Below, piece by piece: positions 1 through 33,399 of a stretch of DNA of 33,399 nt (position 1 is the stretch's first letter; each line of letters opens with the position of its first letter). Source of the stretch: Methylobacillus rhizosphaerae (GTDB lineage Bacteria > Pseudomonadota > Gammaproteobacteria > Burkholderiales > Methylophilaceae). The notes under the pieces were generated by a model. It saw only the letters and a list, made by a program, of their open reading frames with translations, had not been told where the DNA came from and ran no database searches. The translations under genes were made by a program, and so were the position numbers. The stretch covers positions 1 to 33,399 of the forward strand of contig NZ_FZOA01000012.1 of NCBI RefSeq assembly GCF_900187985.1. The letters run 5' to 3'.

Positions 1-344
1 CAGATGGGGAGGTGCTAGTCCACTCAGATCAAGGTAGTCAGTTCAGCAGCTATGATTGGCAGGCATTTTTAAAAGCGCACCGTCTCAAACCTAGCATGAG
101 CAGACGAGGAAATTGCCACGACAATGCAGTCGCAGAAAGCTTCTTTCAATTGCTGAAGCGGGAAAGGATACGTCGGAAGATTTATGAGCATCGAGAAGCC
201 GCCCGCCAAGATGTATTTGATTACATCGAGATGTTTTATAACCCTAGGCGTCGACACAGTTTCAATAATGGCCTATCGCCAGTAGAGTATGAAAAGCGTT
301 ATTTCGAGGGGCTGGAGACTGTCTAGAATAGTAGGGGCGATTCA
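1..344 (+). mobile_element. IS3-family insertion sequence, right-hand end (left part outside window)
   Basis: The 3' part of an IS3-group element: the C-terminus of its DDE transposase followed by a terminal sequence ending ...GGGGCGATTCA at 344. On the opposite strand the terminus reads TGAATCGCCCC, fitting the TG...CA ends of the family. The boundary at 344/345 is fixed by comparison with the inverted copy at the right edge: bases 250-344 are identical to the reverse complement of 33305-33399, and the flanks then differ. The element is inserted in cas9. The left inverted repeat and any target-site duplication lie outside the window. Confidence 0.93.
3..326 (+). CDS. IS3-family transposase (OrfB), C-terminal part
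   Basis: The reading frame is open to the window edge, so the gene is 5'-partial; the GTG at 12 is an internal codon. The visible 107 residues are the second half of an rve-type DDE integrase core. HSDQGSQ carries the second catalytic Asp, the family signature MSRRGNCHDNA follows, and AESFFQLLKRE carries the catalytic Glu. The C-terminus (YIEMFYNPRRRHS...LSPVEYE) is typical of the IS3/IS51 branch. It would cut and join IS ends, normally as an OrfAB frameshift fusion, but that region is not visible. The stop lies 18 bases inside the IS end. Confidence 0.93.
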   Translation, partial: DGEVLVHSDQGSQFSSYDWQAFLKAHRLKPSMSRRGNCHDNAVAESFFQLLKRERIRRKIYEHREAARQDVFDYIEMFYNPRRRHSFNNGLSPVEYEKRYFEGLETV

Positions 345-1595
345 ATTGAGTTCTCTCTCTACTTCCTCGTCTTCCTTGTAAACAGATAGCACTCGGGCGA
401 TGTCATCCAATTGTTGTGGTTGTCCATCAAGGGCAGCCACGGAAAGTTTCTGCCATTCATCTTCTAGTCTTGCCACCTTGAATGCTTTCTGTAACTCTTG
501 CCAGCCTGGAAGCTTGATGAGTTTTTCATCTTCCGGATTTTTAGCTTTTTCTTCCTCGCGCTGCTTATCGCTAGGATAAGCAAGGCTGGCAAACCGGAAA
601 CCATCCTTTTGTAAAAAACCTTCTTTCACCAGCGCGTTACCTAATTGCTTGTAACTAAAATCACTGGCTTGCTGATAAGGAAGCAGCAACGCAAAACGAC
701 GCTCAGCATCTGATAATGGTCGTGTTTTACCATCCACTACTAGCCGCAAATTATTCAATCGCGTGAGCCAGACATGACGCTCAGCAGTGAAACTAGCTTT
801 GGGTGCGCGATATTCAGTTTTCTCAAAAGTGCATTTACCCAACATTTTGAGTAAGTCTTCACCAGATAGCGCAGGTTTTTGCGCCCAGAATAGTCCTATC
901 TTACGGTCAAGCAATGCAGATTCAAGCGTTGCAGACGTATATGGATTACCCAACTCACGTTGCCGTTGAAACATAGCAGTCAACTCATCAGCCAAGAGCA
1001 GTCGGGAAAGCGCTTTGCTGTAGTCCCCACGCTTATTGCGCTGAGCATCGGGAAACTCATGAAGCACCATTTCTGCGGCAGTGCGATAGTTTTTTTCCTT
1101 CATCAGCCTCTGGGTTCCCGCCAACCCTTTCTTGACTGCGCCACCTTCCTTGTCATCGTCGGCTTTCTTTTCTTCCGCCTTACTCATCCAGTGAAAGCCG
1201 CGATGTTTGACAAGGTGATAAATCACGCGTGCCCATTCTTCGGCATTAAGCCTGCGGTCCAGAGCCTCGACGCGCAATTGCCACAAATTGGGAGTTTTGA
1301 AACCTTGGGCCGGCTGTTTCTTTAAAACATTGACATCAGCAATCAATCCTTCGCGTTTAAGCAGACGTGCCAGCTTGGTCAACCTCCATGCACGTCGCCT
1401 TAGCCGCCGACGCAACAATCGGGCTGTGCGCCGAGCAAGATTGAGCGGCTCTCCTTCCTTGGCTGTTTCTGCCTTATCGAAACAACGCACACCAAGATCA
1501 ACAATGCGATGGTCGTTCAATACCGCCCAGCCAACTGACGCAATACCAATATCCAGCCCGAATACCAAAGGCCCCAGATTCTTCTTGTTTTGCAT
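342..1595 (-). pseudogene. cas9: Type II-C CRISPR nuclease Cas9, N-terminal fragment truncated by IS insertion
   Basis: About 417 residues of a Cas9 close in style to Neisseria Cas9. RuvC-I reads FGLDIGIASVGWAVL, with the catalytic Asp near residue 15. An Arg-rich bridge helix follows (about 50-84, LARRTARLLRRRLRRR), then REC segments (WQLRVEALDR, IYHLVKHRGF, RNKRGDYS, GNPYTS, PALSG, ML.KCTFE, WLTRLNNLR). The end corresponds roughly to residue 400 of the ~1080-residue Neisseria protein. RuvC-II/III, HNH and the PAM-interacting domain are absent, so it cannot cleave DNA. The last native codon abuts the IS, and the IS end supplies the TGA stop. An upstream ATG at 1631 exists, but the start at 1595 has an AGGGG ribosome-binding site 8 bases away, and the longer start would overlap the tracrRNA anti-repeat. 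The rest of the gene may lie beyond the IS. Confidence 0.93.
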
Positions 1596-1613
1596 GCCGA
1601 AGTCCCCTATCAT
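1585..1613 (+). promoter_or_regulatory. sigma70-type promoter of the tracrRNA
   Basis: TTGTTT (-35, 1585-1590) and TATCAT (-10, 1608-1613) are separated by exactly 17 bases. Transcription would start near 1620, right at the first base of the anti-repeat. The promoter lies in and just upstream of the cas9 5' coding end, on the opposite strand. It is a prediction from consensus and spacing only. Confidence 0.6.
1604..1608 (-). promoter_or_regulatory. Ribosome-binding site fixing the cas9 start
   Basis: AGGGG on the minus strand, 8 bases before the ATG at 1595. The alternative ATGs at 1631 and 1613 have no comparable purine-rich site. This supports the shorter Cas9 N-terminus beginning MQNKKNLG. 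Confidence 0.6.
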
Positions 1614-1620
1614 TTGTTCT

Positions 1621-1709
1621 GTTGTAGTCATCCGGGGTGAGAGCCGTTGCTACAATAAGAACTTAATTGTTCGTATCCAGCCCGGCCTCTGGCCGGGCTT
1701 TCATTTTTT
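1621..1709 (+). ncRNA. tracrRNA of the type II-C CRISPR-Cas system
   Basis: The first 36 bases (1621-1656) form an anti-repeat. It ends GCCGTTGCTACAAT followed by AAG, closely resembling the Neisseria tracrRNA at the same place (CCGTTGCTACAATAAGG). It begins GTTGTAG, and its complement has the layout of a II-C repeat (ATTGTAGC...CTACAAC). A nexus-like hairpin follows: GAAC at 1659-1662 pairing GTTC at 1669-1672. A rho-independent terminator comes next: nine perfect pairs AGCCCGGCC/GGCCGGGCT at 1679-1699, then six T at 1704-1709. In II-C systems this RNA pairs with crRNA repeats and scaffolds Cas9. The gene appears intact although its cas9 is broken. Confidence 0.82.
1679..1709 (+). terminator. 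Rho-independent terminator of the tracrRNA
   Basis: A perfect 9-bp GC-rich stem (1679-1687 with 1691-1699), a TCT loop, and a T-rich tail ending in six T. It also forms the terminal hairpin of the tracrRNA. Confidence 0.85.
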
Positions 1710-1803
1710 CTCGAGTCAGTTAGTTATATCCCCGACTCCCTCGCTACATGACTATGTCACTTGCCCATGCATAGTGCAAGCTGTGCTGAAGTCTGCGATA
1801 CGC

Positions 1804-1809
1804 TATAAT
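1804..1809 (+). promoter_or_regulatory. Probable -10 box of the pcnB promoter
   Basis: A perfect TATAAT, 40 bases before the pcnB ATG. No good -35 is seen at 17 bases (CTGTGC at 1781-1786 is weak). The region between the tracrRNA terminator and here (1710-1800) shows nothing else convincing. Confidence 0.45.
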
Positions 1810-1849
1810 CCATAGCAAATTCCAGCCTTGTAAACATTCAGCCAACATA

Positions 1850-3214
1850 ATGATTAAAAAACTGCTGCAACGCGTTTTTAAGCCTTCCCAAAAGTCTGCG
1901 TCGTCCAAGAAAGTTGCTTCCAGCATCATTGCGCGGATTCCTGCATCCACACACCGCATTAACCGCTCGCTGATCAGTAAGGCTGCGATCAAGACTACTG
2001 AGGGTCTGCAGAAAGCTGGGTTTGAGGCTTTTATCGTGGGAGGGGCGGTACGCGATTTATTGTTGAAGAAGCGCCCCAAGGATTTCGATGTGGCGACCAA
2101 TGCCACGCCGGAGCAGGTGAACCGGATTTTCCGCCGCTCTCGCATTATTGGCCGGCGTTTCCGGCTGGTGCATGTGATGTTCGGGGATGAAACGATCGAG
2201 GTTTCCACGTTCCGCGGTCATCACTTGAGTGAGGAAGGTGATGCCAAGGTGGCGGATAGTGGCCGTATCCTGCGCGACAATGTGTTTGGCAGCCAGGAAG
2301 AGGATGCTGTCCGGCGGGATTTCACCGCTAATGCGTTGTATTACGACCCTGCCAGCGAGGATGTGCTGGATTTTCATGAAGGGGTATCGGACATTCAGGC
2401 CGGGATTCTGCGCATGATTGGGGACCCTGAAACACGCTATCGTGAAGACCCGGTGCGCATGCTGCGTGCAGTGCGGCTTTCTGCCAAACTGGGGTTGAAA
2501 CTCGATCCTGCCACGGAGCGGCCTATTTCCGAGCTGGCTGACCTGCTGCATGATGTGCCACCTTCGCGCCTGTTTGACGAGATGCTCAAGCTGTTCCTGT
2601 CTGGCCATGCGCTGGAGAGTGTCAATGCCTTGCGGCAACATGGCCTGCAACATGGGTTATTGCCGCTATTGGATGTGGTGCTGGAACAACCACTGGGAGA
2701 ACGCTTCGTTACGCTGGCCCTGAAAAATACGGATGACCGCGTATTGGCGGAGAAGCCGGTTTCGCCTAGCTTCCTGTTTGCCACATTGCTCTGGCATGAG
2801 GTGTTGCTTGCCTGGAAACAGTACGAGAAGCAAGGCAATAAGGCCATCCCTGCACTTTACATGGCCATGGATGAAGTATCCGATATCCAGGCTGAGAAGA
2901 TGGCCATCAATAAGCGCTATAGTGCGACCATGCGCGAGATATGGAGCCTGCAGCCACGCTTTGAGAATCGGGCTGGCAAGCGTCCATACAGTCTGCTGGA
3001 AAATCCGCGTTACCGTGCGGCTTATGATTTTCTGTTATTACGCTGCGAATCCGGGGAGTTACCTGCGGAGCTGGGCCAATGGTGGACTGATTTTGCCAAT
3101 GCAGATGGCGAAAAGCGCCAGTCCATGCTGCAACCGGACACTACACCTCGCAAACGCAGGCGCCGCCGGACAAAAAAACCTGCGGCAGCAACAGCACCAG
3201 AATCCGGAGAATAA
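1850..3214 (+). CDS. pcnB: Poly(A) polymerase I
   Basis: A 454-residue class II nucleotidyltransferase that adds poly(A) tails to RNA 3' ends and so promotes decay by the degradosome. The catalytic core is visible: GGAVRDLLL around residue 64, DFDVATNATPEQ with the metal-binding Asp pair, the RIIGRRFRLVHV motif, and RRDFTANALYYDP. It is close to tRNA CCA-adding enzymes. PcnB is favoured by the basic N-terminal lead (MIKKLLQRVFKP), the longer C-terminal region and the basic tail (RKRRRRRTKK) typical of PcnB, and the position upstream of folK as in other proteobacteria. There is no clear Shine-Dalgarno before the ATG. It heads an operon with folK six bases downstream. Confidence 0.93.
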   Translation: MIKKLLQRVFKPSQKSASSKKVASSIIARIPASTHRINRSLISKAAIKTTEGLQKAGFEAFIVGGAVRDLLLKKRPKDFDVATNATPEQVNRIFRRSRIIGRRFRLVHVMFGDETIEVSTFRGHHLSEEGDAKVADSGRILRDNVFGSQEEDAVRRDFTANALYYDPASEDVLDFHEGVSDIQAGILRMIGDPETRYREDPVRMLRAVRLSAKLGLKLDPATERPISELADLLHDVPPSRLFDEMLKLFLSGHALESVNALRQHGLQHGLLPLLDVVLEQPLGERFVTLALKNTDDRVLAEKPVSPSFLFATLLWHEVLLAWKQYEKQGNKAIPALYMAMDEVSDIQAEKMAINKRYSATMREIWSLQPRFENRAGKRPYSLLENPRYRAAYDFLLLRCESGELPAELGQWWTDFANADGEKRQSMLQPDTTPRKRRRRRTKKPAAATAPESGE

Positions 3215-6154: not shown

Positions 6155-6313
6155 ATGATTTTGCGTAAAAGTTTTCTACTGATTGCTGTATTTGCCATGC
6201 TGCTTGGCGGCTGCTGTGGATTCGGCCCACACGGCGGTGGTCATGGAAAGCATGACAGAGGCCCTGGTCATTCCCATCACGGCCCGGGCGGCGACAGAGG
6301 TCATGGACGCTAA
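6155..6313 (+). CDS. Very small His/Gly-rich lipoprotein
   Basis: A 52-residue ORF with a good ribosome-binding site (AGAGGTG, spacing about 5). The N-terminus MILRKSFLLIAVFAMLLGGC is a textbook type II signal peptide with the lipobox Cys at residue 20. The mature part is about 33 residues, dominated by Gly and with seven His (GPHGGGHGKHD..., HSHHGPGGD). It is followed at once by a strong terminator, so it looks like its own short transcript. The family is not recognised. The His/Gly composition suggests binding of a transition metal such as Ni, Cu or Zn at the outer membrane, but that is inference. The 163 bases between panC and this gene hold no clear promoter. Confidence 0.65.
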   Translation: MILRKSFLLIAVFAMLLGGCCGFGPHGGGHGKHDRGPGHSHHGPGGDRGHGR

Positions 6314-6330
6314 GTCATCGTCATCCAGCA

Positions 6331-6356
6331 AAAAGCCGGCAATCGCCGGCTTTTTT
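6331..6356. terminator. Bidirectional rho-independent terminator
   Basis: AAAAGCCGGC at 6331-6340, an AATC loop, then GCCGGCTTTT at 6345-6354 continuing into more T. It can terminate the small lipoprotein gene on the plus strand and ypfJ on the minus strand. Confidence 0.9.
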
Positions 6357-6366
6357 CATTGCGTCA

Positions 6367-7212
6367 TCATCCCTTGCCAAAAGTATCACATGCATCCACG
6401 GCACCACTCTTGTAACCGGTATTAAACCATTGCATGCGCTGGGCACTGCTGCCATGGGTAAAGCTTTCTGGCACCACATATCCCTGTCCGCGTTTCTGCA
6501 GGTTATCATCCCCTATCTGGGATGCTGCATTCAAGGCAGATTCAATGTCTCCCGTTTCCACGATGCGATACTGGGCATCTGCATGATGTGCCCACACGCC
6601 AGCCAGGCAATCAGCCTGCAACTCCTGCAAGACAGACAGCCTATTGGCTTCCGTTTCGCTGGCGCGCGCACGCAATTGATCCACCTTGGGCAACACGCCA
6701 AGCAGGTTCTGCACATGATGTCCGACCTCATGCGCAATCACATAGGCACGGGCGAACTCTCCCGGCGCACCCAGCTGTTTTGCCAAGGTATCGTAAAATC
6801 CCAGATCAATATACACAGTACGGTCCAGGGAGCAATAGAACGGCCCCATGGCACTCTGCCCTACACCGCAACCAGTCTGCGTCGTATTGGCGCGACCACC
6901 GAACAGCACCAGCTTGGGTTCCTGGTAGGTACGACCCGCCTGTTTGAACAGCTTACCCCAGACATCTTCCGTATTGGCCAATACAGCAGAAACAAACATG
7001 GCCTGTTTATCATCCGCTACAGGCGCGCTTCCCTGCTGGGTGGCAGGTGTACTGGCGCTATCGAGCAACCCCAGGATGGTCAGGGGATTGACACCAAATA
7101 TCCATCCCGCCACCAGCGCCACCAACAGGGCACCTATACCCAGGCCGCCCTTGCCACCGCTGCCGCGCCTGTCTTCCACATTACCCGAACGTCTCAATCC
7201 ATCCCATTTCAT
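6367..7212 (-). CDS. ypfJ: YpfJ-family neutral zinc metallopeptidase
   Basis: 281 residues (KPN_02809/YpfJ family, predicted Zn protease of unknown substrate). The N-terminus MKWDGLRRSGNVEDRRG is the family start. A single membrane segment follows (about 24-48, LGIGALLVALVAGWIFGV), then a catalytic domain with HEVGHHVQ (HExxH zinc ligands), a likely third ligand in the ELQADCLAGVW segment, and a C-terminal SFTHGSSAQRMQWFNTGY motif. It is probably anchored in the inner membrane with the protease domain in the periplasm. The AGGGAG site upstream supports this start. It is transcribed away from the DUF4153 gene's 3' end and stops at the shared terminator. Confidence 0.93.
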   Translation of the reverse strand: MKWDGLRRSGNVEDRRGSGGKGGLGIGALLVALVAGWIFGVNPLTILGLLDSASTPATQQGSAPVADDKQAMFVSAVLANTEDVWGKLFKQAGRTYQEPKLVLFGGRANTTQTGCGVGQSAMGPFYCSLDRTVYIDLGFYDTLAKQLGAPGEFARAYVIAHEVGHHVQNLLGVLPKVDQLRARASETEANRLSVLQELQADCLAGVWAHHADAQYRIVETGDIESALNAASQIGDDNLQKRGQGYVVPESFTHGSSAQRMQWFNTGYKSGAVDACDTFGKG

Positions 7213-7304
7213 CTCTGATCTCCCTTGAATATCCTTACAGGTATTTAATTAATCATCAGCGCCAACGAAGCTCATATCAGGCTATTAGCTAACACCACTC
7301 TTGT

Positions 7305-9035
7305 TTAATTATCATTAGAATACAAACGCACATCTCCAATCCAGAGCTCCTTCCAGCGAGCAGGCCTGGTCAAAATCGCAGCTTGCGCAGGAAATCTATT
7401 TTCCATCAGATTGTATATACCATCCCCATACAAACTTCCAGCCAGGGACCACCGGCCATTCTCAATACTGTATATCTTGCCAATATAACTCATCAGCATA
7501 ATCCACTCATTGCGCCCATCACCATCCAGGTCCACAGACAAGACCGGACACGGTTCTGCCTCACTGCAGGTAGGTCGGACAGATGGATTGTCCAGCAGAT
7601 AGTCCACGAACTCAGCATCAAGTTCAGTACCCCGCGGATAAGGTCTCCACTGTTTAAACAACTGCTCTTGCGTCAGTTGATGTTCTTTACCCTCAGAAGA
7701 AGTGAAAGTACGGTACTCTACCGTCAAAGCAGCTTCTGCTTTCTGCTGGATCAGTACAGCATCAGGATGTATCGTATTCTTGCTGAGTTGCTGCAACACA
7801 GCATTGCCATAACGCTTTCCATTCAGGCGCAAGTATTCAAAATCAAAATCATAGGCGGCCAGCTTTCCGCTCATCAAACGGGCTACCTGGCTATTCACGG
7901 ATAATCGCACCGGGTCCAACACAGGGGTCAGGGTCAACAGCAACAGGACAACCACACTCAACGCTGCCAGGATATTCACTTGCCGCACTCCTGCCATCCA
8001 GACAGCTTGCCTTTTCAGCACCACCCAGGCGTAGCCCAGCGCGTAGATAGCTGCCAACACAACCACCAGCGCCGCCCAGACTCGATCCACTGTCCAGCCA
8101 TACTGGCTCACGCGCAGCCCCAGAGAGTATGCGCACAATGCGATATAAACCGGCATTGCCAACAGGCCGATACCGATAAAACGTAGCAGCCAGCGAGGAA
8201 AACGTTGCTCACCCGATGCATCCTGCCAGGCAGCATTAAACAGAAATATAGTGCAGGCCAGCAAAACAAGGATCAGGCTGGTGGCATATCCGGTTTTCCA
8301 TAACAAGGTGAGCCCCTGGAACGGCAGGGCCAACAGGAACAGAATCAGGATAAAACTCACCATGGGCAACAACCAGCCAAGAATGTTCAGGCTCGCGCGA
8401 TAAATGCCAACCAAAGCCTCTTCCTTTGCCGCATACAAGGAAATCCCAATACCGAAGACAATCGCCGTGACGGGATAAGCGAATATGCGACTGGTGAATA
8501 GATCCATGAACAAAGCAACATTGAGCACTTTGAACAGGCCAGCCAGCAGGAACAGTAATATCCAGAACACACCTGTGAACACTGCTGCCAGCGCAAGTTT
8601 GACGCAGTTACGCCACGCGGAGGCAAATAACAGCGAATAATTGCTGCACCAATTACCCTGGCTGAGTTGATGCTCCGCAAAAGGCAACAGGACAAACCAG
8701 CTGATGAACGCCATCGCACCTAAAAGAAAACCAGCCTGCCCAGTCCTGTGCAGAGGTAAATCCACAACCCAGGCCTGGTACCCGGTGTAGGATGCTGCAG
8801 CGGAGATCAACAGGGTAAACCCTGTCACCATGATCCATAAATACTTATCCTGCCTATATTTGGACAGCAGCATCAGGGTGGATGGCAGAATGATCACACC
8901 GGCATACAGTGGCCAGATCACACTTAAATAAGGCCCCGTGCCCGGCAGGCTGAGCAGCCACTCATGCAACAACCACAAGCCAATTCCCTGCAATGCAGCC
9001 CAGGCAATAATCCAGCTGCGCTCTGCTTTACTCAT
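7305..9035 (-). CDS. DUF4153 multi-spanning membrane protein
   Basis: 576 residues with about eleven hydrophobic segments in the first ~370 residues. The stretch around 140-215 (AWRNCVKLALAAVFTGVFW...FKVLNVALFMDLFTSRIFAYPV...GIGISLY) resembles DUF4153 proteins. The last ~200 residues are soluble and probably extracytoplasmic. They contain DLDGDGRNEWIML, a DxDxDG calcium-loop-like motif, in a part ending ARWKELWIGDVRLYS. Function is unknown for the family. A GAGGGA site precedes the ATG. The soluble C-terminus is not typical in my recollection and could be an added sensor or binding domain. Confidence 0.8.
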   Translation of the reverse strand: MSKAERSWIIAWAALQGIGLWLLHEWLLSLPGTGPYLSVIWPLYAGVIILPSTLMLLSKYRQDKYLWIMVTGFTLLISAAASYTGYQAWVVDLPLHRTGQAGFLLGAMAFISWFVLLPFAEHQLSQGNWCSNYSLLFASAWRNCVKLALAAVFTGVFWILLFLLAGLFKVLNVALFMDLFTSRIFAYPVTAIVFGIGISLYAAKEEALVGIYRASLNILGWLLPMVSFILILFLLALPFQGLTLLWKTGYATSLILVLLACTIFLFNAAWQDASGEQRFPRWLLRFIGIGLLAMPVYIALCAYSLGLRVSQYGWTVDRVWAALVVVLAAIYALGYAWVVLKRQAVWMAGVRQVNILAALSVVVLLLLTLTPVLDPVRLSVNSQVARLMSGKLAAYDFDFEYLRLNGKRYGNAVLQQLSKNTIHPDAVLIQQKAEAALTVEYRTFTSSEGKEHQLTQEQLFKQWRPYPRGTELDAEFVDYLLDNPSVRPTCSEAEPCPVLSVDLDGDGRNEWIMLMSYIGKIYSIENGRWSLAGSLYGDGIYNLMENRFPAQAAILTRPARWKELWIGDVRLYSNDN

Positions 9036-9091
9036 GTAAATTTCCCTCAGGCTGAGATAAATCTTTCGTTTATTCAGCGTGTTGTTTCCAC

Positions 9092-9097
9092 TATAAT
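9092..9097 (+). promoter_or_regulatory. -10 box of the panD operon promoter
   Basis: A perfect TATAAT 31 bases before the panD ATG. The -35 at 17 bases (TTTATT, 9069-9074) is weak. It would drive panD-rsfS-rlmH-phr. Confidence 0.5.
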
Positions 9098-9128
9098 AGT
9101 CGGTCTTGTTTTTTCACATTGACTGGCC

Positions 9129-9509
9129 ATGCAAAGAACTATGCTCAAATCCAAGCTGCACCGCGTATCCGTCACGCACTCGGAGTTGAACTACGAAGGC
9201 TCCTGTGCCATCGATGAAGTATTGCTGGAAGCAGCCAACATTAAAGAATATGAGCAGATTGACATATACAATGTCAATAATGGTGAACGCTTCACCACTT
9301 ATGCCATTCGTGCCGAACGCAATTCCGGCACCATTTCCGTCAACGGTGCCGCTGCACGCAGGGCCAGCCCTGGCGATCTGCTGATCATTGCCACTTATGC
9401 GAGCTATACAGTTGAAGAGCTCGCTGAATTCAAACCCCAGCTGGTGTATGTCGATGCGCAGAACCGTATCAACAACACACGCCAGCACATCCCGGTACAG
9501 ACTGCATAA
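9129..9509 (+). CDS. panD: Aspartate 1-decarboxylase proenzyme
   Basis: 126 residues. It decarboxylates aspartate to beta-alanine, the second substrate of PanC. The self-cleavage site is Gly24-Ser25 in NYEGSCAID; Ser25 becomes the pyruvoyl cofactor. Other motifs are [47 protein letters not shown]. An internal ATG at 9141 (MLKSKLH) is a possible start, but numbering from 9129 places the Gly-Ser pair exactly at the usual position. The stop abuts the rsfS start codon, implying co-translation. Confidence 0.97.
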
Positions 9510-9869
9510 ATGCTAGATTTAGAAGAAATGAAGCTGGCCGTCATTGACGCGCTGGAAGATATTAAAGCCTTTGATATTACGGTCATGGATGTGCGCAAGC
9601 TCACTTCATTGACCAGCTATATGATAGTGGCAAGTGCGAACTCCACACGCCAGACCAAGGCTATTGCCAACAATGTGCGCGAAAAGCTCAAAGAGAAAGG
9701 CGCCCCACTGCAGGGGATTGAAGGCGAAAAAGAAGGTGAATGGGTATTGGTGGACCTGACTGACATCGTGGTACATATCATGGTGCCTACTGCTCGCGCC
9801 TACTACAACCTTGAGCAACTCTGGGGCGAAACCGAAAACCGCCGCGCCACTGCTGCCTCCAGCAGCTGA
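9510..9869 (+). CDS. rsfS: Ribosomal silencing factor RsfS
   Basis: 119 residues. It binds ribosomal protein uL14 on the 50S subunit and blocks subunit joining when nutrients are scarce. Family motifs are present: DALEDIKAFDITVMDVR, TSYMIVASANSTRQTKAIANNV, GEKEGEWVLVDLTDIVVHIM, and YYNLEQLWGE at the C-terminus. Its ATG follows the panD stop directly. In most proteobacteria the gene just upstream is nadD, which is not here. Confidence 0.96.
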   Translation: MLDLEEMKLAVIDALEDIKAFDITVMDVRKLTSLTSYMIVASANSTRQTKAIANNVREKLKEKGAPLQGIEGEKEGEWVLVDLTDIVVHIMVPTARAYYNLEQLWGETENRRATAASSS

Positions 9870-9877
9870 TCCCCGTC

Positions 9878-10345
9878 TTGAAGCTCCGCATCCTTTCCGT
9901 TGGCCACAAAATGCCGGACTGGGTGCAGGCAGCTTGCGCTGAATATACCAAGCGCATGCCACGCGAAATGAGCGTGGATATCATTGAAATCAAGCCCGAC
10001 AAACGCGCTTCCGGGAAAAACTCGGATGTCGTGCAGGAAGCGGAAGCCAAGCGTATTCTCGAAGCCGTCGGACGCGACTATCTGATCGCGCTGGATGAGC
10101 GCGGACAGGAAGTCACGACACTGCAACTGGCAGATAAAATGCGCGGGTGGATGGAAAGCGGACGCGACGTCAGCCTGGTCATTGGGGGTGCCGATGGCCT
10201 GCATGACAGTCTTAAATCCCGCGCCGACTGGCTCTGGAGCCTTTCACGCCTCACAATGCCCCATGGCATGGTACGCGTAATGCTGAGTGAGCAACTCTAC
10301 CGTGGGTTAAGCGTCATCAATAACCACCCTTATCATCGCGAATAA
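9878..10345 (+). CDS. rlmH: 23S rRNA (pseudouridine1915-N3)-methyltransferase
   Basis: 155 residues, SPOUT-class methyltransferase that methylates pseudouridine 1915 in helix 69 of 23S rRNA on the 70S ribosome. The start is a TTG at 9878, chosen because it gives the canonical MKLRILSVGHKMPDWV and follows rsfS by eight bases. SAM-knot features: LIALDERGQ, VSLVIGGADGLHD, and the C-terminal RVMLSEQLYRGLSVINNHPYHRE. The rsfS-rlmH pairing is conserved. Confidence 0.96.
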   Translation: MKLRILSVGHKMPDWVQAACAEYTKRMPREMSVDIIEIKPDKRASGKNSDVVQEAEAKRILEAVGRDYLIALDERGQEVTTLQLADKMRGWMESGRDVSLVIGGADGLHDSLKSRADWLWSLSRLTMPHGMVRVMLSEQLYRGLSVINNHPYHRE

Positions 10346-10346
10346 A

Positions 10347-11771
10347 ATGTCCAAATCGCTGGTCTGGTTCAGGCGTGATTTGCGGGATTACGATCATGCG
10401 GCGCTATACCACGCTCTCAAGCACGCTGCGCCTGCCACATGCGTGTTTGTTTTCGATACCGATATCCTCGACACCCTAACCAACCGCCAGGACAAAAGGG
10501 TAGAGTTTATCTGGGAAAGCGTCCGGGAACTGAAACATGCTCTGCAACAGCAAGGCAGCGACCTGCTGATTCGCCATGGCCGGGCTGTGGAGGAAATCCC
10601 CAAACTTGCTTGCGCCCTGGGAGTGGAAAGCGTTTACTGCAATCATGACTATGAACCTGCCTGTATCGCGCGCGACAAATCAGTGCAGCAGGCACTAGCA
10701 AGCCACAACATCACATTTCACAGCTTCAAGGACCAGGTAATTTTTGAGCAGGATGAAATCCTGACCAAATCCGGCACCCCGTTCAGCGTTTTTACTCCCT
10801 ATAAGAACGCATGGCTCAGGACACTGAATGACTTTTACCTTCAGGCATACCCTGTAGGACCTTATCTCTCAAGATTGGCAACGAGCCTTCCAGAACCCAT
10901 GCCAACGCTGGAAAGCCTTGGATTTGAACACAGCGACCCCAACCTGCCAGCGCTTCCGACCGGTATGTCCGGCGGACAGCAACTATGCACCGACTTTCGT
11001 GACCGCATGCAACATTACCGCGATACACGTGACTTTCCAGCGATCAAGGGGCCTTCTTACCTCTCCGTTCATCTACGTTTCGGCACAGTTTCCATCCGCC
11101 AGTTGGCAAGCGCAGCCTACTATCAGGGCGGTGCTGGCGCAGAAACCTGGCTTTCGGAACTGATATGGCGCGATTTCTATTTCCAGATATTGCACCACCA
11201 CCCCCATATCGCCCATGGTCGTAGCTTCAAGCCGGAATTCGAGCAGATCCCGTTTTCCAATGATCGCGCCCTTTTCCAGGCATGGTGTAACGGAAAAACT
11301 GGCTACCCCCTCGTTGATGCCGCCATGCGCCAACTCAACCAGACTGGCTACATGCATAATCGCCTGCGCATGATTACTGCAAGCTTTCTGGTCAAGGACC
11401 TGCTGGTAGACTGGCGCTGGGGTGAGCGTTACTTTGCCACCCACCTGATTGATTTCGACCTGGCAGCCAACAATGGTGGCTGGCAATGGGCCGCTTCCAC
11501 TGGCTGTGATGCACAGCCCTGGTTCCGCATATTCAACCCGGTGACGCAATCAGAAAAATTTGATCCCCGGGGAAAGTTCATCCGCAAATACGTGCCTGAA
11601 CTCAAGCAATGTGACTCCAGGGAAATTCATGCGCCGTGGCTTATCCCTCCGCTGCAGCAGCAAGCACTCAAGCTGGTGATTGGCGAGAACTACCCCGCTC
11701 CCATCGTCAACCATGCACTGCAACGTGAGCGAGCACTTGCACTCTACAAAACGGCAGGCAGTCCACCATAG
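10347..11771 (+). CDS. phr: Deoxyribodipyrimidine photolyase (class I CPD photolyase)
   Basis: 474 residues. It repairs UV cyclobutane pyrimidine dimers with blue light, using FAD and an antenna pigment. The N-terminal alpha/beta antenna domain starts KSLVWFRRDLRDYDHAAL. The FAD/DNA-binding domain carries GPSYLSVHLRFGTVSIRQL, ELIWRDFYFQIL, GKTGYPLVDAAMRQLNQTGYMHNRLRMI, LVDWRWGERYFATHLIDFDLAANNGGWQWAASTG and the C-terminal YPAPIVNH. It begins one base after the rlmH stop, so it is probably read with the panD operon. Confidence 0.95.
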   Translation: MSKSLVWFRRDLRDYDHAALYHALKHAAPATCVFVFDTDILDTLTNRQDKRVEFIWESVRELKHALQQQGSDLLIRHGRAVEEIPKLACALGVESVYCNHDYEPACIARDKSVQQALASHNITFHSFKDQVIFEQDEILTKSGTPFSVFTPYKNAWLRTLNDFYLQAYPVGPYLSRLATSLPEPMPTLESLGFEHSDPNLPALPTGMSGGQQLCTDFRDRMQHYRDTRDFPAIKGPSYLSVHLRFGTVSIRQLASAAYYQGGAGAETWLSELIWRDFYFQILHHHPHIAHGRSFKPEFEQIPFSNDRALFQAWCNGKTGYPLVDAAMRQLNQTGYMHNRLRMITASFLVKDLLVDWRWGERYFATHLIDFDLAANNGGWQWAASTGCDAQPWFRIFNPVTQSEKFDPRGKFIRKYVPELKQCDSREIHAPWLIPPLQQQALKLVIGENYPAPIVNHALQRERALALYKTAGSPP

Positions 11772-32793: not shown

Positions 32794-32887
32794 GGAGAGC
32801 TGGCCGAGTGGTCGAAGGCACTTCCCTGCTAAGGAAGCATACGGGCTTAAACCTGTATCGAGGGTTCGAATCCCTCGCTCTCCGCCA
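32794..32887 (+). tRNA. tRNA-Ser (anticodon GCU)
   Basis: 94 bases including the encoded CCA. The acceptor stem is GGAGAGC/GCTCTCC. The anticodon arm is CTTCC-CTGCTAA-GGAAG with anticodon GCT in DNA. There is a long class II variable arm (TACGGG-CTTAAA-CCTGTA), and the T arm is CGAGG-GTTCGAA-TCCCTCG. It reads serine codons AGC/AGU. Its 3' end is a likely attachment site for the integrative element whose integrase begins 87 bases further on. Confidence 0.97.
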
Positions 32888-32974
32888 TCAACAACCTAAC
32901 CTCCTATTTTTTAAAGAATTCAATAGGGGCTTGGGTTTCAAGATGGCCTGGTAAGACACTGAGGTGAGACGCTT

Positions 32975-33307
32975 ATGACAAAGCGAGCCCCCGACATGAC
33001 CGTTCAGGATTACATCTATAAAGTAGATTCAACCTGGTATTTCCGCCTCACCATTCCCAAGCAAGTCAGAAATTTCATTCAAGATAGCCTTAAGGCTGGT
33101 GATGATATTTCACACATCATTCCAGAGCAGCTTCAGAAAAAATACTCCTCAAAGGAAATCAAACTTTCTCTTGAGACAAAAGATTATTCAGCAGCAAAAA
33201 AGCTCAGAGATCGTCATTTGGCAACCTACAATAGCTTCTTTGAAGCGCTCTTAGGTCTGATCTCACCAAATGAAACAATTGAAGCAGCAAGGAATATCTT
33301 GGACTGA
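32975..33307 (+). pseudogene. Tyrosine-type site-specific integrase, N-terminal fragment truncated by IS
   Basis: 110 residues remain. The segment YIYKVDSTWYFRLTIPKQVRNFI...KKYSSKEIKLSLETKDYSAAKKLRDRHLATYN matches the N-terminal SAM-like/DUF6538-type region of phage and island integrases (WYFR.R.P..., S L.T.D...A). The core-binding and catalytic R-H-R-Y domains are missing. GAGGTGAG lies six bases before the ATG. The last native codon is GAC at 33302-33304, and the first three bases of the IS provide the TGA stop. The position just behind tRNA-Ser and the same orientation fit a genomic island or prophage inserted at the tRNA 3' end. Confidence 0.8.
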
Positions 33308-33399
33308 ATCGCCCCTACTATTCTAGACAGTCTCCAGCCCCTCGAAATAACGCTTTTCATACTCTACTGGCGATAGGCCATTATTGAAACTGTGTCGAC
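33305..33399 (-). mobile_element. Second copy of the IS3-family element, right-hand end, inverted
   Basis: The exact reverse complement of bases 250-344 over all 95 visible bases. It begins TGAATCGCCCC at the integrase junction and runs off the window. No mismatch is seen, so the two copies are recent or still being exchanged. Confidence 0.95.
33323..33399 (-). CDS. IS3-family transposase, extreme C-terminus
   Basis: The last 25 residues or so of the same transposase as at the left edge (FNNGLSPVEYEKRYFEGL...), ending with TAG at 33325-33323. The gene is 5'-partial because the window ends. Confidence 0.88.
   Translation of the reverse strand, partial: RHSFNNGLSPVEYEKRYFEGLETV

Follow-up and report, generated by a model that had tools for sequence, protein, structure and literature searches.

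A Cas9 fragment closed by an insertion sequence in Methylobacillus rhizosphaerae, with its tracrRNA gene, is very probably the relic of a type II CRISPR-Cas locus

The closest described systems are the type II-C CRISPR-Cas loci of the NmeCas9 type. The locus described here resembles them in that the N terminus of its Cas9 aligns with theirs, a tracrRNA gene with an anti-repeat lies beside cas9, and its relatives have the gene order cas9-cas1-cas2-array. In contrast to those systems, the locus lacks cas1, cas2, and an array as well as two thirds of Cas9 and retains a stub and the tracrRNA gene. Among type II loci of Mollicutes, at least 8 of 21 systems are predicted to be degraded, and there is one case in which a part could not be identified, yet a putative tracrRNA was predicted (PMC6882279). 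Those loci belong to another phylum, and the accessible part of that report does not describe a cut by an insertion sequence (IS) that supplies the stop codon (PMC6882279). In the core defense hotspots of Pseudomonas aeruginosa, various defense systems are found at one place between core genes, according to the available portion of that study (PMC10250203); the slot that we compare with them lies in another genus and, across six genomes, holds differing CRISPR-Cas types, one per genome. Our literature search, which most subscription papers lay outside of, found no paper on the present locus.

The stretch of DNA that we analyzed (the window) makes up all of contig 5 (C5; 33,399 bases) of the draft genome of M. 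rhizosphaerae, which has 2,368,811 bases in 17 contigs and a completeness of 99.99. On its minus strand, an open reading frame spans positions 342 to 1631, with 429 amino acids counted from the ATG at 1631 or 417 from the ATG at 1595. The first-pass annotation had assigned this entire frame to a Cas9 N terminus that stops at the end of an IS3-family element. The frame exists and the assignment holds, except that bases 342 to 344 belong to the IS, so the Cas9 coding sequence extends down to 345. The ATG at 1595 is the more likely start of cas9, because positions 1596 to 1631 run into the anti-repeat of the tracrRNA gene. The cas9 fragment thus delimited (345..1595, minus strand; 417 codons) was recognized by profile matches and by matches to sequences of solved structures, and it contains a GLDIG motif, an arginine-rich helix, and a further region, which we take to be RuvC-I, the bridge helix, and REC, respectively.

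Several searches identify the fragment as Cas9. The Cas9 model TIGR01865 matched window positions 345 to 1631 (minus strand) with 267 bits, against a cutoff of 100, over profile positions 2 to 404 of 1070; the Cas9 models of PADLOC also matched (best, 1.6e-73), as did Pfam Cas9_a (9.3e-07). At E values up to 0.001, we found 34 distinct PDB sequences, every one of them named as Cas9 or a Cas9 fusion (best, 3.2e-75). In the top structure match, 6jdv_A, presumably NmeCas9, residues 21 to 426 of the query align with residues 11 to 398, the REC region included. Eleven loci were confirmed by tblastn as relatives of the fragment in genome contigs, and its nearest relatives are Methylophilaceae and other betaproteobacterial records. 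Although the score places the fragment in TIGR01865, the frame stops before the HNH and RuvC-II/III motifs of that family, as the annotation had said, and no other TIGR01865 match occurs in the genome. In the 1,168-residue Cas9 of the sister genome G053, the motifs EMARD, DHALP, and HHALDA, which we assume to represent RuvC-II, HNH, and RuvC-III, begin at residues 556, 638, and 778, and the cut in the window corresponds to residue ~433. By its sequence, then, the fragment comprises the N-terminal third of one Cas9 protein, and since HNH and the later RuvC motifs are missing, it would not be expected to cut DNA.

The fragment is closed by the right end of an IS3-type element (1..344, plus strand), inside which the contig starts. 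Elements of the IS3 family have an OrfA with an HTH_Tnp_1 domain, an OrfB with rve domains, and TGA...TCA ends. All of these features were found here: the 3' end of OrfB with rve_2/rve_3 domains (3-326, plus strand) lies within the right end, OrfA read from a left end has HTH_Tnp_1, and the terminal inverted repeat (plus strand) ends in GGGGCGATTCA at position 344, with its last 45 bases about 80% identical to the left ends. On the minus strand, this terminal TCA reads as TGA and provides the stop codon of the cas9 frame (342..344, minus strand). Seven right ends in the draft are identical up to the base corresponding to 344 and diverge beyond it, two of them comprising just 94 to 95 bases of the IS, and seven left ends lie at other contig ends. 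The assembly breaks inside this element at all 14 ends seen. Another of these right ends closes the far end of the window (33305..33399, minus strand), as identified by comparison of the IS ends. There, within 32794 to 33399, a tRNA-Ser (gct) is followed by a DUF6538 frame (32975-33307) that is cut by this further copy of the IS, whose end again gives a TGA stop; this frame resembles the first part of an integrase belonging to an element at the tRNA.

The three bases flanking the IS at the cas9 junction are ATT. The flanks of the left ends terminate in AAC, AGT, GAT, CCC, ACG, CCA, and GTC; ATT occurs at 0 of these 7, and therefore no left end carries the short target duplication. A simple insertion of the IS into cas9 is thus unsupported. 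One pair of ends (the C5 end and the C10 end) has GTC in common, which could be chance among 49 pairs, and for six of the seven right ends, there is no left end with a matching flanking triplet.

Antisense to the cas9 leader lies an apparently intact tracrRNA gene (~1620..1708, plus strand), recognized from sequence, alignment, and fold and absent from the first-pass annotation. Its anti-repeat (1622..1655, plus strand) matches the CRISPR repeat of relatives. It is followed by a middle GAAC/GUUC hairpin (1659..1672, plus strand), which is seen in the fold, varies in length among relatives, and lies outside the consensus structure, and by a terminator hairpin (1679..1699, plus strand) with a T-rich tail, which was located by terminator scan, fold, and covariation. 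The terminator scan found 1 terminator, compared to 0.6 expected from shuffles. The fold of 1620 to 1708 has an energy of -36 kcal/mol (z, -4.35), with 0 of 200 shuffles equally good. When the window was aligned with 13 relatives (n = 14; L030 was omitted for its N run and L078 as a duplicate of L029), 7 of 21 consensus pairs showed two-sided changes that keep the pair. All 7 are in the terminator hairpin, and the pairs of the anti-repeat show one-sided changes or none. The first 59 nucleotides are identical, as compared by eye, to those of the G053 tracrRNA (61 of 64 without gaps), and the G053 repeat pairs with the anti-repeat of the window at -52.8 kcal/mol, equal to its pairing with G053's own anti-repeat. 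The tracrRNA with an anti-repeat that belongs to a type II-C locus is accordingly present in sequence and structure. A putative -10 element, TATCAT (1608..1613, plus strand), lies inside the cas9 leader, and an AT-rich hexamer is seen by eye near this position in relatives; a promoter scan of 1400 to 1900 reported neither TATCAT nor any other plus-strand promoter for the tracrRNA. A search of window positions 1 to 3000 against Rfam gave no match at E values up to 1. The gene may still be transcribed, although without a partner.

The remainder of the system was not found in the draft. Cas9 models matched the window fragment only, and models of Cas1 had no match in this genome, whereas the same Cas1 search detects Cas1 in the sister genomes G053, G054, and G055. 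The sole match of the relatives' CRISPR repeat to this genome is the anti-repeat of the tracrRNA, and there is no regular CRISPR array in the window or in positions 1 to 12000 of contig C15. When the Cas9, Cas1, and Cas2 of G053 were compared by tblastn with the outer 3 kb of contigs 2 to 17, with the masked contig C1 (1,157 bases, N throughout) left out, the window fragment was again the only match. The cas1 and array of a type II-C locus, and the cas2 beside cas9 that was sought near contig ends, were thus not found. Since there is a single Cas9 match, no Cas1, and only the anti-repeat as a match to the repeat, the distal part of cas9, cas1, and the array are, within the reach of these searches, missing from the draft. 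The annotation's suggestion that distal cas9, cas1, cas2, and the array may survive beyond the IS was not borne out in the draft, with cas2 sought near contig ends.

They could still be in the cell, either lost to a gap in the assembly or lying next to the IS in a stretch that was not assembled, given that 14 contig ends stop inside this element and that one contig of 1,157 bases is masked. We consider this unlikely. The missing part comprises cas1, cas2, and the array in addition to ~2.2 kb of cas9 and would amount to several kilobases of unique sequence, which should assemble; the completeness is 99.99; left and right ends are equal in number (seven each); and within 3 kb of the seven left ends, there is no sequence of Cas9, Cas1, or Cas2. 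Rather, a type II CRISPR-Cas locus (II-C-like and related to NmeCas9) has very probably lost its distal part to an IS-driven deletion, with the fragment and its tracrRNA gene as the relic.

An intact counterpart of the locus is found in G053 (L075), where pcnB (6292-7647, minus strand) is followed by a divergent cas9 (7861-11367; 1,168 amino acids), cas1, cas2, an array with a 67-base period and 21 to 22 copies, a FadL-like gene, and cysA. The cas9, cas1, cas2, and array are contiguous, and csn2 and cas4 are absent as judged by gene order alone. In the window, the gene next to the tracrRNA gene (1850..3214, plus strand), a pcnB-like gene that we name after the first-pass annotation, is the fixed neighbor of the CRISPR slot within the genus. 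The cysA, cysW, and cysT genes of M. rhizosphaerae are on C15, the first 340 bases of which are a left end of the IS; between that end and cysA lie genes for a TonB receptor, a BNR-repeat protein, a small protein, and an RDD protein. No match to the G053 FadL-like gene turned up in this genome, in a search that lacked a positive control. Placing reversed C5, the IS, and C15 in a row would restore the order and orientation of G053. We infer this join from synteny and orientation only, because the assembly breaks inside the IS at 14 ends.

From this comparison, an ancestor would have had tracrRNA, cas9, cas1, cas2, and array between pcnB and cysAWT, like G053 at present. An IS3-type element would have inserted in cas9 past about codon 417, and another copy, oriented alike, would have inserted before the TonB receptor gene, where its left end now starts C15. 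In the simplest case, recombination of the two copies would then have removed the last two thirds of cas9 together with cas1, cas2, and the array, leaving one IS without a duplication; a deletion adjacent to the IS is an alternative to recombination of two copies. Left over would be the 417-residue RuvC-I, bridge helix, and REC fragment closed by the TGA of the IS, together with a tracrRNA gene that has a conserved anti-repeat and terminator. We infer this order of events, and with it the loss of CRISPR-Cas9 immunity. At 2.37 Mb, the genome is smaller than five sister genomes (3.0 to 3.2 Mb), and it may have shrunk and been rearranged through the IS.

Comparison with relatives confirmed that their Cas9 proteins run on longer, as in the 1,168-residue protein encoded beside pcnB in G053, and that several of the loci have cas1, cas2, and an array. 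The nearest protein relative that we found is the cas9 of Methylophilaceae bacterium SKW116 (G049; L029, JANZZG010000061.1), a member of another genus, at 81% identity over the fragment, compared to 71% for the G053 Cas9. The G049 gene is open over 914 amino acids up to its contig end. Unlike in the window, cas9 and pcnB are on separate contigs in G049, an unrelated gene precedes cas9, and the G049 tracrRNA differs from that of the window, which matches G053. Cas9 matches occur in 13 of 187 genomes of the family, M. rhizosphaerae included. By tblastn of the G053 Cas9 against the loci of 11 of the 12 others (the twelfth being G053, the source of the query), the cas9 genes of G071 (L079), G116 (L077), and G126 (L063) shift frame part-way, with about 40 residues of G053 skipped at the join in G116; these frame changes are either true breaks or sequencing errors. 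The cas9 of G183 is split by a run of N, and others reach the end of the stretch compared. In G138, a 73-residue open frame (L068; G138:C190:9738-9944) matches the Cas9 N terminus, with 57% over query residues 17 to 81, and may be a further case of a cut Cas9 among these genomes.

The fragment shows no sign of decay. In a comparison of 11 sequences, with 7 in the core set (that of the window included) and G071 and G116 dropped by the filter, it alters 5 of 215 columns that are otherwise invariant, compared to a range of 2 of 212 to 18 of 228 in six relatives. The synonymous-site difference to these six relatives (pS) is 0.80 to 0.87, that is, saturated, and the rate test is therefore without power. 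With no sign of decay, the fragment is either young or still under constraint; a recent break of cas9 would suit these data. One could argue that the fragment and tracrRNA are kept for use, with the nuclease-free stub binding the tracrRNA and acting, for instance, in regulation or as a protein that binds RNA, as the frame is intact across 417 codons, there is no excess change at invariant sites, and the tracrRNA is identical over 59 nucleotides to that of the intact sister locus. However, a recent break predicts the same lack of decay, and the saturated synonymous sites leave no close comparison. Moreover, no stub like this one was seen in the 12 other Cas9-matching genomes of the family, which were compared by reading frame, and G071, G116, G126, and G138 show other kinds of breakage. 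We therefore regard a retained use as improbable, more so than a hidden remainder of the locus; the relic most likely has no function, and a kept stub is possible, with the lack of decay as its sole positive evidence. An IscB- or TnpB-like origin of the fragment, in which RuvC-I and an arginine-rich helix occur as well, can be rejected with near certainty, because the matches are Cas9 models and solved Cas9 structures, with REC aligned to residue 398 and several relatives accompanied by cas1, cas2, and an array, and no IscB or TnpB model is among the listed matches of the profile searches.

The position of the relic led to a second observation that the first-pass annotation did not include, namely, that sister genomes carry CRISPR systems of different kinds in the gap between pcnB and cysA. 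Across six genomes, the slot between pcnB and cysAWT contains the relic (M. rhizosphaerae, given the C5-IS-C15 join), the Cas9 locus of G053, a distant Cas9 (G054), a type I-C system (G055), or no CRISPR system (G056 and G057). The Cas9 of G054 (L083:6118-11332) is 24% identical to that of G053 and comes with a cas1, a cas2, and an array, the latter with at least 8 copies, of its own. The slot of G055 (L082:5608-13116, L089) has Cas3c-Cas5c-Cas8c-Cas7c-Cas4c-Cas1c and an array that seems to extend over kilobases, in line with repeat-like frames. In G056 and G057, which have no Cas1 or Cas9 match genome-wide, the slot has Sulf_transp/DUF6691 genes. In both, this pair beside pcnB (L084:7267-8113 and L081:5582-6446), identified in G056 by the domain of its first gene, lies in identical order and on the same strand with respect to pcnB, and it may be an older filling of the slot.

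In G053, G054, and G055, there is one cas1 per genome, and it is located in the slot. Among 22 of 187 genomes of the family with cas1, only these three have it within 10 kb of pcnB. No cas1 was seen within that distance in the other 19, which were compared by eye: in 18 of them, cas1 is at least 60 kb from pcnB or on another contig, in which case nearness is still possible, and in G183, pcnB was not found. A role of pcnB as a CRISPR neighbor throughout the family was thus not seen. In 75-base windows along the relic, G053 is the nearest relative in the first two (1715 down to 1566) and tied in the third, and some other relative outdoes it in 14 of the 15 later ones. That G053 is closest in the tracrRNA and leader and other genera are closer in the cas9 body hints, on small windows, at recombination in the slot, and it would be a trace of exchange. 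Tentatively, and with less confidence than we place in the relic itself, we suggest that the gap between pcnB and cysAWT could be an exchange slot in which whole unrelated CRISPR loci (type I-C and two distant Cas9 lineages) swap by homologous recombination via the conserved neighbors, and that the window would be a recently emptied state with the tracrRNA left as a border piece.

The cut Cas9 is genuine and of a familiar sort; because CRISPR loci broken by an IS are already known, the stub itself alters little, and more interest attaches to the slot that the genomes share. Its states in six genomes of one genus form a small natural series on how whole CRISPR systems swap, which also bears on the question of whether an orphan tracrRNA outlives its Cas9.
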